From Candidatus Zixiibacteriota bacterium (lineage in GTDB: Bacteria; Zixibacteria; MSB-5A5; UBA10806): a DNA stretch of 33,883 nt. Each line of letters starts with the position of its first letter. Position 1 is the stretch's first letter. The stretch lies in assembly GCA_020348065.1 (NCBI GenBank), contig CP070742.1, forward strand, positions 3,181,648 through 3,215,530, given 5' to 3'. A program made the translations under genes and the position numbers. The notes beneath the pieces were generated by a model. That model was given only the letters and a program-made list of their open reading frames with translations, searched no databases and was not told the origin of the DNA. Positions 27,066-31,907 of this stretch are shown piece after piece.

Positions 27066-28448
27066 ATGCCAATAGAATCTTCTCCCCCGCCCGATCAGCT
27101 GTGGTCGGATGCGAAAGATATAATTAAATCCGAGATCTCACTTCAAAATTTCAACACCTGGTTTAATTCCTCTTCCGGAGTGTCTCTCGACAATGAAACG
27201 TTCAAAGTATCCGTTCCCAATAAATTTACGGCGGAATGGTTAAAAAACAGGTTTAATCATACCATTATAAAAGCCGTAGCATGTCGCCTTGGAGCATCCA
27301 GAAAAATCGAATATGTAATAGAAAATTCAAACGAAAGCATTGCGCCCGTCGATAATTACCCTGCTAAAGATGAAACCGATTTAGATTCTGGACGCTCCGA
27401 AACCGCAAAAACCGGCATGCCCGGATTGGTATCCAACCTTAACATCCGATACCTCTTCGATAACTTCGTTGTGGGCGATTCCAACCAGTTCCCCCATGCC
27501 GCCGCCAAAGCGGTCGCCGAGGCCCCCATGCAGACCAAATATAATCCTCTGTATATTTACGGCGGAAGCGGCCTCGGGAAAACTCACCTGGTCCAGGCCA
27601 TCGGAAACGAGGTGATGACAGGCTTCTCCAATCTCAAAGTACTTTACGTAACATCGGAAAAATTCACCAACGATTTTATCGACGCTATTGCCCAGAAGAA
27701 AACCCTCGAGTTCGCCAGGTTCTATAGAAGCGTGGACCTGCTCCTTCTCGATGATATCCAGTTTTTTACCGGCAAGGAAGCGACGCAGGAACAGTTCTTT
27801 CACACTTTCAACGCATTATACCAGGCCGGGAAACAGATAGTCCTCACCTCCGACAGGCCTCCCCGTGAAATAAAAGGGTTGGAGGAACGTCTGTTATCTC
27901 GATTCCAGTGCGGCTTGGTTACCGATATCCAACCGCCTGATCTGGAGACGAGGACCGCCATTCTGAACATGATTATTAAACTGCAGGGACTTTCAATTCC
28001 ACCGGAGGTCGTCGCCTACATCGCCAACAATGTAACCAGGAATATACGCGAGCTCGAAGGCTCGATTATTCGCCTCAATGCTTTCGGATCCCTCAACGGC
28101 AAAAAAATCGATATTCACTTCGTACAGGAAGCCTTAAAGGGTACTTTTACTTCCGGCAAAGAAATATCCATAAAATCCATTACCGAAAATGTGTCCGATT
28201 ATTATAAAATCAATCCGGACCTTTTGAAATCGAAAAGAAAGACCGCTGAACTCGTAAGAGCCCGCCAGGTGGCAATGTTTCTGTGCCGAAAGTATACCTC
28301 GAACTCTCTAAAAAAAATAGGGGAGAATTTCGGGGGCCGGGATCATTCGACCGTTATTCATGCCATCTCGACAGTTGAAGATAATCTCGATACAGATTTT
28401 AACCTGAAATCGGCAATAGAAAATATAAAAGCGGCCATAACAGGCTGA
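27066..28448 (+). CDS. dnaA: Chromosomal replication initiator DnaA
   Basis: A 460-residue AAA+ initiator that binds DnaA boxes and melts oriC. Domain I, residues 1-90, has the LWSDAKDIIKSEISLQNFNTWF helix set (quoted in part). A short linker is domain II (90-120). Domain III holds Walker A GGSGLGKT (166-173), Walker B LLLLDD (to 230) and sensor VLTSDRPP. Domain IV carries the box-binding signature GGRDHSTVIHA near the C-terminus. The length is normal. The start ATG 27066 has no clear Shine-Dalgarno; the next Met is far inside. Its neighbours dnaN and recF are in the classical order. Confidence 0.97.
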   Translation: MPIESSPPPDQLWSDAKDIIKSEISLQNFNTWFNSSSGVSLDNETFKVSVPNKFTAEWLKNRFNHTIIKAVACRLGASRKIEYVIENSNESIAPVDNYPAKDETDLDSGRSETAKTGMPGLVSNLNIRYLFDNFVVGDSNQFPHAAAKAVAEAPMQTKYNPLYIYGGSGLGKTHLVQAIGNEVMTGFSNLKVLYVTSEKFTNDFIDAIAQKKTLEFARFYRSVDLLLLDDIQFFTGKEATQEQFFHTFNALYQAGKQIVLTSDRPPREIKGLEERLLSRFQCGLVTDIQPPDLETRTAILNMIIKLQGLSIPPEVVAYIANNVTRNIRELEGSIIRLNAFGSLNGKKIDIHFVQEALKGTFTSGKEISIKSITENVSDYYKINPDLLKSKRKTAELVRARQVAMFLCRKYTSNSLKKIGENFGGRDHSTVIHAISTVEDNLDTDFNLKSAIENIKAAITG

Positions 28449-28871: not shown

Positions 28872-29987
28872 ATGAAATTTAAAACCGATAGAGCAACCCT
28901 TCATAACGCCTCATCGAAGATTTTAAGCATAGTTCCTCCGAAGACGACTCTGCCTATACTTTCGAACTTGCTGTTTGAACTGGAGGAGGGAAAGCTATCA
29001 CTTAAAGCCACAGATCTCGACGTTTCCATGACCTCGACCGTCGATGTAGATGCTCAGAAATCGGGTTCCATCGCCGTGCCGGCCAAAGTCTTTTTTGAAA
29101 TAGTTAGAGAATTGCCTGATTTCGATCTGGAGATTTCTACTTATGAAAATAGAATGGAAGTAAAATGCGGTTCAGGCATTTATAAGGTGTCGGGATTCCC
29201 GGCCGAAGATTTTCCCAAACTCCCGGATGTACATGTCGCCAGGCAGGTTAAACTTGACGGCAAGGTTCTGGTCGGGATGATAAGAAAGGCTCTGTTTGCG
29301 GTTTCCAGGGATGAAACACGGCCGGCCTTGAACGGCGTTTACTGGCATACGAAAAATGATAATCTGAACATGGTTTCCACCGATGGACATAGACTGGCCA
29401 AAGTGAGCAGGAAGGATCTGAAAATCGGCGGCTACAGCAAGGACATTATCGTACCGCCCAAGGTGCTCGACAATCTGGTACGACTTCTCGGAGACGAGCC
29501 GGGGGAGGTCGGCGTTATTATTAACGAAAGCTCTATTGTGTTCATGCTTGAGAACGTGATTTTGACATCCAGGCTTCTGGAGGGACCATATCCCAATTAC
29601 GATCAGGTTATCCCCAAGGATAATAATAAGATAATGACCGTGGACCGGGAGATTTTAAACGCCGCTGTCAGAAGAGTGGCGATATTGTCAAACACTCTTA
29701 CTCACCAGGTGAAATTCTCGCTGAAAATGGACGAGCTCGAGCTGTCGGCCACGAATTTCGATCTCGGAGGAGAGGCCAGAGAGAATCTGAAAGTGGAGTA
29801 TAAAAACGAGGAAATGGAGATCGGATACAACTCCAATTATATCATCGATATACTAAAGCATGTCGAGGGTGATGAGGTCAGTTTTGAGCTGAATACCCCT
29901 ACCACGGCCGCTATTATCAAATCCTTCACCTCAACTAAAGACGAGGAATACTTTTTTCTTGTAATGCCCTTACGTCTTCTGGATTAG
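28872..29987 (+). CDS. dnaN: DNA polymerase III beta clamp
   Basis: A 371-residue sliding clamp, forming a dimeric ring that tethers Pol III and repair polymerases to DNA. It has the three-domain clamp pattern: KTTLPILSNLLFELEEGKLSLKATDLDV (in part) in domain 1, SRDETRPALNGVYWH and STDGHRLAKV in domain 2, and the C-terminal hydrophobic-cleft end VMPLRLLD (family VMPMRL). GGGAGGAAATAA precedes ATG 28872. It ends 20 nt before recF. Normal length and no disrupted region. Confidence 0.97.
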   Translation: MKFKTDRATLHNASSKILSIVPPKTTLPILSNLLFELEEGKLSLKATDLDVSMTSTVDVDAQKSGSIAVPAKVFFEIVRELPDFDLEISTYENRMEVKCGSGIYKVSGFPAEDFPKLPDVHVARQVKLDGKVLVGMIRKALFAVSRDETRPALNGVYWHTKNDNLNMVSTDGHRLAKVSRKDLKIGGYSKDIIVPPKVLDNLVRLLGDEPGEVGVIINESSIVFMLENVILTSRLLEGPYPNYDQVIPKDNNKIMTVDREILNAAVRRVAILSNTLTHQVKFSLKMDELELSATNFDLGGEARENLKVEYKNEEMEIGYNSNYIIDILKHVEGDEVSFELNTPTTAAIIKSFTSTKDEEYFFLVMPLRLLD

Positions 29988-30007: not shown

Positions 30008-31116
30008 ATGTATATCGAGAAAATTATATTAAAAAACTTCAGAAATTTGAAAAACCAGAGCATCGGGCCTTTCACGGAAAATATTAATCTCGTAGTGGGC
30101 CCGAACGGGAGCGGCAAAACCAATGTTCTCGAGGCCCTGGGGCTTTCGGCTATCGCCAGGTCCTGTCGGGGAGCTCAGAGCCGGGAGATGGTCGGATTCG
30201 GTTCCGAGTCTGCTATTGTCGAGGTTGAAGGAATTTCCGAAAAAAAAAAGCCGTTATAAAATTTTCCATATCCAGGTCGGGCAGAAAAGATATTATAGGG
30301 AATTTCGGGAGAGCCATGAGAGTTTTGGATGCCGTCGGCACTTTCGCCATGGTATTTATCCTTCCGGAGGACCTAAACCTGACATCGGGCTCGCCCCGGT
30401 TTCACAGGAGCTTCATGGATATCTACCTGAGCCAGTTCTCCAGGGCCTATTTGCTGAATTTAATGGAGTACCAGAGAATATTAAAGCAGAGAAATTCGCT
30501 CTTGAAGGCCATGAAGGACGGCGAGAAGAAAAGCGGCGCCGCGGAACTCGATGCCTGGGATAAAAGCCTTATCGCGGCCGCTATAAAAATAATGGCGGCC
30601 AGGCAGAACTTCTTGCGGGAGATAGAGTCAAACGTTGAGAAAATTGTCCTGGGACTTTCCGGCTCCAAGGAAAAAGTCAAAATTGCATACAGGCCGAGAA
30701 TAGAGAAAGGGGATCTTGACGATCTGTCTACAGCACTGGATTTTTTTCAAAAGTTCCGCGCCAGCGATAAAAAATACGGCACCACGCTGGTGGGTCCGCA
30801 CCGCGATACCATAGAGATTATGATGAACCATAAACCTTTAAGAGAATTCGGTTCTCTGGGTCAGAGAAAGACGGTGATGATAGCTATGAAACTGGCGGCC
30901 CTGGAAGTTATGTCGAATCATTTAAAAGATAACGCTATCCTGGTGCTGGATGAGGCCTTTGCGGAGTTCGATAGAATTCGAACAAAATCGCTTTTGGACT
31001 TGCTTTCGGGAAGGGGTCAGGTATTTTTAGCCAGCGCTGATGAGAGGGGACTGAGCGGCGTTTATGACGATATCCGAGTCTTCAAAGTAGACGGCGGGAT
31101 GGTAACGGAGAATTGA
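30008..31116 (+). CDS. recF: RecF, reading frame broken by -1 shift at an A10 run
   Basis: RecF loads RecA at gaps and belongs to the SMC-like ABC ATPases. The first frame, from ATG 30008, has MYIEKIILKNFRNLKNQSI (19 residues) and Walker A GPNGSGKTNVLEAL, but stops at TAA 30257-30259, after GISEKKKPL. The homology continues in the -1 frame: AVIKFSISRSGRKDIIG, then VILPEDLNL-like VFILPEDLNLTSGSPRFHRS, LKQRNSLLK, the ABC signature FGSLGQRKTVMIAMKLA and Walker B ILVLDEAFAEFD, ending at 31116. Joined by a -1 shift at 30244-30250, the protein would be 369 residues, the normal RecF length. The alternatives are a real frameshift mutation, an assembly error in the homopolymer, or programmed slippage. 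The stop overlaps the start of coaX. Confidence 0.85.
30228..30250 (+). promoter_or_regulatory. Candidate programmed -1 frameshift signal in recF
   Basis: In the first frame the codons read A AAA AAG at 30244-30250, the canonical bacterial slippery heptamer, within a run of ten A (30240-30249). A Shine-Dalgarno-like AAGGA (30228-30232) ends 11 nt before it, the stimulatory spacing known from E. coli dnaX. The zero-frame stop follows at 30257. No convincing downstream stem is visible. Confidence 0.5.
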
Positions 31117-31118
31117 GC

Positions 31119-31895
31119 GTGTTTCTGGCGATAGATATCGGTAATACGACCACCATGATAGGATTTTTCGAGGGGAGCAGGATCCTGGGAAGTTTTCGCA
31201 TCGAGTCGTCCCGGGCCGGCACTCCCGACGAATGCGGCATATTGGCTCATCAATTGTTGGGATATCACGTCGGAGATGATAAAGCCGTCGGGAAAATAGG
31301 GATATGTTCCGTTGTGCCTCCATTGACGCAGATTTACGTTTCCATGGCGAAAAAATATTTCAATACTGTCCCCTTGTTGCTCGATCATAATTCGAGGCTC
31401 GACTTTAAGATTCTTTACGATGTTCCCGAACAGGTGGGAGGGGATCGACTGGCCAACGCCGCGGCGGCAAGGGTTCTTTACGGATACCCGTGCATAATCG
31501 TGGATCTGGGCACCGCCACCACCTATGACGTGATAAACTCCGACGGCGATTATGCCGGAGGTTTAATCAGCCCGGGCCTGTGGACGTCCGCCTCCAATCT
31601 GTTCAAAAAAGCGTCAAAACTGTTTCCGGTGAAAATAGAGAAGCCTGATAAAGCGATAGCTACGGACACCGCCAATTCAATCAAGTCGGGATTATATTAC
31701 GGTTTCATCGGCCAGATGGAGTATCTGGTGAACCTGATAAAAAGAAATATGAAAGCTGAAAATATAAAAGTTATTGCCACGGGCGGATTTTCCGATATAT
31801 TTACAGAAAGCGATACAGGCGTGGTCGACCACCTGGAACCGTCGCTTACATTGAAAGGTCTTCAGATCGTTTTTGACGGCGGCCAAAATGTTTAA
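31119..31895 (+). CDS. coaX: Type III pantothenate kinase CoaX
   Basis: A 258-residue cytoplasmic ASKHA kinase that phosphorylates pantothenate in the first step of CoA synthesis. GTG 31119 is chosen because GGAG sits 8 nt upstream and the protein then begins MFLAIDIGNT as in the family; a TTG at 31113 is too close to the ribosome site. Motifs: DIGNTTTMIGFF (phosphate loop), EQVGGDRLANAAAA, IIVDLGTATTYDVI and YAGGLISPGL. The final ATGGFS matches the adenosine-site strand. The recF stop lies at 31114-31116, so recF and coaX are coupled. Placement after dnaA-dnaN-recF is unusual but not unique. Confidence 0.94.
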   Translation: MFLAIDIGNTTTMIGFFEGSRILGSFRIESSRAGTPDECGILAHQLLGYHVGDDKAVGKIGICSVVPPLTQIYVSMAKKYFNTVPLLLDHNSRLDFKILYDVPEQVGGDRLANAAAARVLYGYPCIIVDLGTATTYDVINSDGDYAGGLISPGLWTSASNLFKKASKLFPVKIEKPDKAIATDTANSIKSGLYYGFIGQMEYLVNLIKRNMKAENIKVIATGGFSDIFTESDTGVVDHLEPSLTLKGLQIVFDGGQNV

Positions 31896-31907
31896 AAAAA
31901 AACTTGC

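Follow-up and report, generated by a model that had tools for sequence, protein, structure and literature searches.

Introduction

To our knowledge, few cellular bacterial genes, neither mobile nor viral, are subject to conserved recoding; prfB and dnaX are the chief examples, and there are a few others. Frameshifting in Escherichia coli dnaX is stimulated by an SD sequence and a stem-loop. E. coli possesses a sole tRNA-Lys, and the occurrence of two tRNA-Lys species has been put forward as a possible reason why dnaX of Thermus uses polymerase slippage (PMC5009743). In Thermus thermophilus this transcriptional slippage takes place at an A9 run and gives rise to short and long products (PMC1088944). 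The dnaX genes of Chlorobium and related genera consist of two ORFs joined by a -1 shift at A7-A10 runs, mostly A10, and the long product needs the shift; a constant shift direction among orthologues is held to predict ribosomal frameshifting (PMC3711429). In Citrobacter rodentium tssM1 a stop lies just after an A11 run and slippage of about 20% restores the full length, with no SD or stem (PMC4256274). Transcript insertions in E. coli and Buchnera climb exponentially with the length of the A/T run, and 80% of them add one base (PMC5574713).

The recF gene described here shares with Thermus thermophilus dnaX a probable slippage on an A run in the presence of two tRNA-Lys species (PMC1088944, PMC5009743), the Thermus run being an A9 in a replication gene. 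The gene is a different one, however, and whereas in Thermus the unslipped product is long and the slipped one short, recF needs slippage for its long product. Like the Chlorobium dnaX, recF comprises two ORFs joined by -1 and depends on the shift for its long product, although the short product of Chlorobium is a known type of subunit and the RecF stub has no known role. As in C. rodentium tssM1, a premature stop is located just after the A run and neither an SD nor a stem is conserved; tssM1, however, is a secretion gene studied by experiment in one species and a Yersinia relative, whereas recF is a core repair gene whose putative slippage site is kept throughout an order. The heptamer of E. 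coli dnaX, A_AAA_AAG, is found in recF in identical form and phase, but the SD and stem of recF are not conserved, tRNA-Lys(CUU) occurs in the genome and the A run extends beyond the heptamer. Finally, the disruption of a conserved gene's frame at poly(A) recalls the rescue of poly(A) tracts in Buchnera and Blochmannia. Those are AT-rich, reduced genomes full of A runs, whereas the present genome (G000) has 3.74 Mb, a GC content near 45% in those stretches that were sampled, and three runs of at least ten A.

Results

The window, i.e. the whole stretch of 33,883 nucleotides that was analysed, represents positions 3181648-3215530 of the single-contig genome G000, and in it the genes dnaA, dnaN, recF and coaX follow one another in this order (Table 1). 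An earlier note on this DNA held that the Walker A half of RecF and the half with the signature and Walker B lie in different frames (-1), and both the DNA and its translation agree. The zero frame, starting with ATG, carries the Walker A motif GPNGSGKT and reaches its TAA (30257-30259) after 83 codons, which is also the zero-frame output that had been given; the -1 frame, from GCC at 30250 onwards, carries the rest of RecF. The zero-frame codons at the join read GAA (30239) AAA AAA AAG (30248) CCG TTA TAA. Ten A (30240-30249) are thus followed by a G, and the split falls exactly where it had been placed, on A_AAA_AAG at 30244-30250 within the A10 run and in the canonical X_XXY_YYZ zero-frame phase. 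The AAGGA upstream (11 nt before the heptamer) and the zero-frame stop just past it (6 nt between) are present as described.

Table 1. Positions in the window of recF, its recoding site and the neighbouring genes
Feature	Position	Strand	Profile match	Remarks
dnaA	27066..28448	+	TIGR00362, 534 bits	upstream in the recF gene block
dnaN (sliding clamp)	28872..29987	+	TIGR00663, 323 bits	directly upstream of recF
recF, zero frame	30008..30259	+	TIGR00611, 75 bits	81 codons of the N-terminal part, including Walker A, followed by two further codons and TAA
AAGGA, SD-like element	30228..30232	+		not conserved
Slippery run A10-G with in-phase A_AAA_AAG	30240..30250	+		kept in relatives
recF, -1 frame	30250..31116	+		C-terminal part with signature GSLGQRKT and Walker B ILVLDEAFAEFD
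coaX (type III pantothenate kinase)	31113..31895	+	NF009855, 253 bits	overlaps the recF stop

Read through in -1, the product has 369 residues, a normal length for the family as had been stated, and in a profile search it scored 297 bits against TIGR00611, for which the curated RecF cut-off is 172 bits; the 83-residue zero-frame piece on its own remains far below this value. Walker A, the signature and Walker B are all present, spread over the two frames, and the best PDB matches of the fused product are the RecF chains 5z67, 8a8j and 2o5v.

Three runs of at least ten A exist in the whole G000 genome, and that of recF is the only one inside a gene; the other two are intergenic, one being the T-tail of a terminator-like hairpin. 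About 40 A9 runs were also counted, and among those near ORF ends that were examined no second split gene was found, the boundaries there being ordinary. One A9 run of the window (31894-31902) overlaps the stop codon of coaX and leaves the reading frame undisturbed, and an A8 run (28310-28317) lies inside dnaA near the 3' end of this full-length gene. Elsewhere in G000, near 3366500, a masked stretch of N falls within an ORF resembling a response regulator. In other split genomes several A10 runs are situated inside single-frame ORFs; an A10 within a gene is therefore rare, but outside G000 it is not unique to recF. The dnaX gene is in a single frame in the split genomes, and that of G000 lacks A runs of at least eight.

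The fused RecF protein was searched in 132 genomes of the same class, to which the systematic sampling was directed; a search of the whole phylum covered these same 132. Matches to recF were obtained in 98, of which about 80 have the gene in one open frame, while in a few it is truncated by a contig end or masked. In four members of the same family (G001, G002, G003 and G004), two of the same order (G007 and G008) and one of another family (G010), the search gave two matches lying in different frames, so that every other recF found in the family and order is split (6/6), plus one from another family. The named relatives, CP070813.1 and JAHEDG010000048.1, are Candidatus Zixiibacteriota. Apart from a differently placed case in G024, the split was thus seen in one order of the uncultured phylum Zixibacteria and in one more distant family. 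In the seven split genomes of families f1 and f2, recF is always immediately preceded by a dnaN-like ORF, and a coaX-like ORF comes after it; G010 has a recF without adjoining dnaN in the stretch read, yet with the same slippery site.

Reading of the DNA revealed that the codon and phase of the split are identical in all eight genes. The shift needed is -1 in each, the fused proteins have 361-378 aa, and the zero-frame stop lies 0-8 codons past the join. Heptamer and phase, which the earlier note had singled out for comparison, are kept in all seven relatives; the heptamer in zero-frame phase is A_AAA_AAG in seven of the eight genes and A_AAA_AAA in the other. The run itself is A10-G in G000-G004 and G010, A9-G in G007 and A11-T in G008. 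These observations bear on a homopolymer error of sequencing or assembly, once regarded as a live alternative. G000 is a single contig, possibly derived from long reads, in which an A10 can be miscounted. The same run and phase recur, however, in seven further assemblies, the eight together comprising two single-contig and six fragmented ones. Among them is a genome of 100 contigs, in which the split recF is carried by JAHEDG010000048.1 under a SPAdes-style NODE name at a coverage of 4.9. Such an error is thus extremely improbable.

Long A runs are mutable, and RecF might also be switched on and off within a population if replication slippage changed the length of the run. Random switching would give in-frame cases, but all eight genes occupy one out-of-frame phase despite lengths of A9, A10 and A11 (a comparison between species, not strains), which makes phase variation highly improbable. 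A contingency locus would have on and off phases through lengths that differ modulo 3 between strains; the phase seen here is the same in 8/8.

Both halves of recF are under purifying selection. The comparison of G000 with G001 gives a dN/dS of about 0.1 for either side of the join (dN 0.12; dS 1.0 and 1.3), and synonymous sites are saturated in comparison with G003 and G004 (pS 0.75-0.8). A pseudogene, or a recent frameshift mutation that left the gene without function, might be considered given that RecF can be lost, as the genomes G005 and G006 without a recF match indicate, but it is very improbable in view of these ratios and of a split common to deeply diverged genomes.

In the eight-gene codon alignment, one codon is kept in only 5 of the 61 degenerate columns in which the amino acid is invariant, and K79 and K80 are two of these. 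The longest invariant nucleotide block consists of nine A, opening with the wobble position of codon 78 and closing with the second position of codon 81, and the next longest has 5 nt (n = 8); within family f1 the block extends to 12 nt. Codon 78, which lies outside the heptamer, ends in A in all eight genes (CAA, GAA or CTA), although the genome codon sample shows a preference for CAG over CAA. The chance of this pattern is about 1e-4 if the lineages are independent, a value based on approximate and partly guessed codon frequencies and on a codon sample biased to loci picked for A9 runs or tRNAs. As families f1 and f2 make up a single clade, the split genes do not amount to eight independent observations. 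The constant A of codon 78 indicates that the length of the run is kept, not just A_AAA_AAG. Lys-Lys-Lys at the join was seen in split genes only, about 27 single-frame relatives having unrelated residues in that loop, and the RecF protein therefore has no need for it.

It is also conceivable that RecF is made as two pieces that assemble, the C-terminal part being translated from an internal start such as ATG 30316, which has GGGAG upstream and opens an ORF of 266 aa. This ATG, however, is missing in G003, G007, G008 and G010. Run and ATG are separated by 21 codons that would be untranslated under such a scheme but are kept as -1-frame protein (identity within f1, 12-14 of 21 residues), and the invariant A run would be left unexplained. 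We consider a two-piece RecF distinctly unlikely.

Discussion

The A run of recF is almost certainly a conserved recoding site, be it for the polymerase or the ribosome: the two halves are out of frame in the DNA where some ten A stand in a row, and full-length RecF can therefore be made only if one or the other slips. Slippage by RNA polymerase is probably the main mechanism. The polymerase would slip on the run, adding one A in a fraction of the transcripts or, less often, losing two, and the slip would thus occur during transcription and not translation. Slipped transcripts would be read straight into the -1 frame to give full-length RecF, whereas unslipped ones would yield an 83-residue stub with Walker A and without the signature motif or Walker B. 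The likely role would be to keep RecF, encoded downstream of dnaN, at a low dose, a small share of what the dnaN-recF messenger yields.

Transcriptional slippage is expected at an A/T run of about nine or more that is kept in orthologues, and runs of A9-A11 were found in 8/8. The conserved unit is a run of nine or more A that goes beyond the heptamer, which favours the polymerase; the earlier note had named this possibility second for the A10, and it fits better, as the kept run extends upstream of the heptamer. The lack of a conserved SD or downstream structure counts in the same direction, by the argument used for Citrobacter tssM1, as does the presence of both tRNA-Lys UUU and tRNA-Lys CUU in G000, a situation similar to that in Thermus. 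Slippage allows a varying direction, but among the split orthologues, though largely one clade, it is always -1, and under the rule for orthologues (PMC3711429) this constancy counts against the polymerase.

The same constancy is in favour of programmed -1 ribosomal frameshifting of the dnaX type, with or without a share for the polymerase, in which two lysyl-tRNAs would re-pair one base back on A_AAA_AAG. We regard this as a real possibility but lean against it. The canonical phase of the heptamer is kept in 8/8, as the dnaX-type reading first proposed would have it, the zero-frame stop is 0-8 codons away, and SD-like sequences are found upstream in G000, G001, G003 and G010. They are absent, however, from G002, G004, G007 and probably G008. 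The anti-SD dG ranges from -7.4 to +0.3 kcal/mol across the eight genes, so this stimulator is not conserved, and the AAGGA of G000 is probably incidental. The earlier note had tied its case to conservation of both the run and the SD-like element; the run is kept in 8/8, the element in about half. A conserved downstream stem was not found in a search for stems, shuffle z-scores being about 0 in most genes and below -3 only in G004 (60 nt). In addition, G000 has a tRNA-Lys(CUU), which should pair firmly with AAG, and the kept bases include ones that the ribosomal mechanism does not need. Polymerase slippage is accordingly the reading we prefer, and the two types of slippage may act together.

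A further suggestion concerns the role of polymerase slippage at recF. It could serve as a valve on the dnaN-recF messenger that sets the dose of RecF according to the state of the cell (e.g. ATP level or polymerase speed), while the abundant stub with Walker A might have an effect of its own, such as restraining RecF dimers. We think this proposal unlikely as it stands; a stable or active stub and a regulated yield are speculation within it.

No report of recF recoding or of frameshifting in Zixibacteria was found in the literature searched, the coverage of which was incomplete and excluded supplements. Recoding on A runs is already known, and it is recF as its gene that appears to be new, judging from that literature. 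If true, a core DNA-repair gene with a sole full-length product dependent on slippage would join the short list of recoded genes. The retention of such a gene through synonymous saturation would suggest a benefit in controlling how much RecF is made. In automated annotation the split recF would be called broken, and RecF would consequently be scored as missing, wrongly, in these genomes. The natural A9, A10 and A11 variants could be used for telling polymerase from ribosome slippage.

The RecF tree unites families f1 and f2 in a single clade with good support (100/99). Close to this clade, with unsupported branching, stand G010, G024 and f5, a family with single-frame recF, and both a single old origin of the split with loss in f5 and two origins are therefore allowed. 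The partners of RecF exist in the split genomes, recO being present in 8/8 and recR in 6/8. Overall, recO was found in 10/10 genomes searched and recR in most. No recF match was obtained in G005 and G006 (family f2, same order) or in several other families of the class; G005 (97% complete) and G006 do have recO and recR matches. Loss of RecF seems to have occurred repeatedly in the class.

Two other broken recF genes were observed. In the single-contig genome G024 (family f13) recF is split by -1 at another place, ATT TTT TTT TAA just after Walker A, on a T9 run with an in-phase T_TTT_TTT at about 788-796 of G024:C1:275000-277500; this genome is without a family-mate for comparison, and its split may be a homopolymer error. 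In G091 (G091:C62), one genome only, recF is broken by a single in-frame TAA between two open parts.
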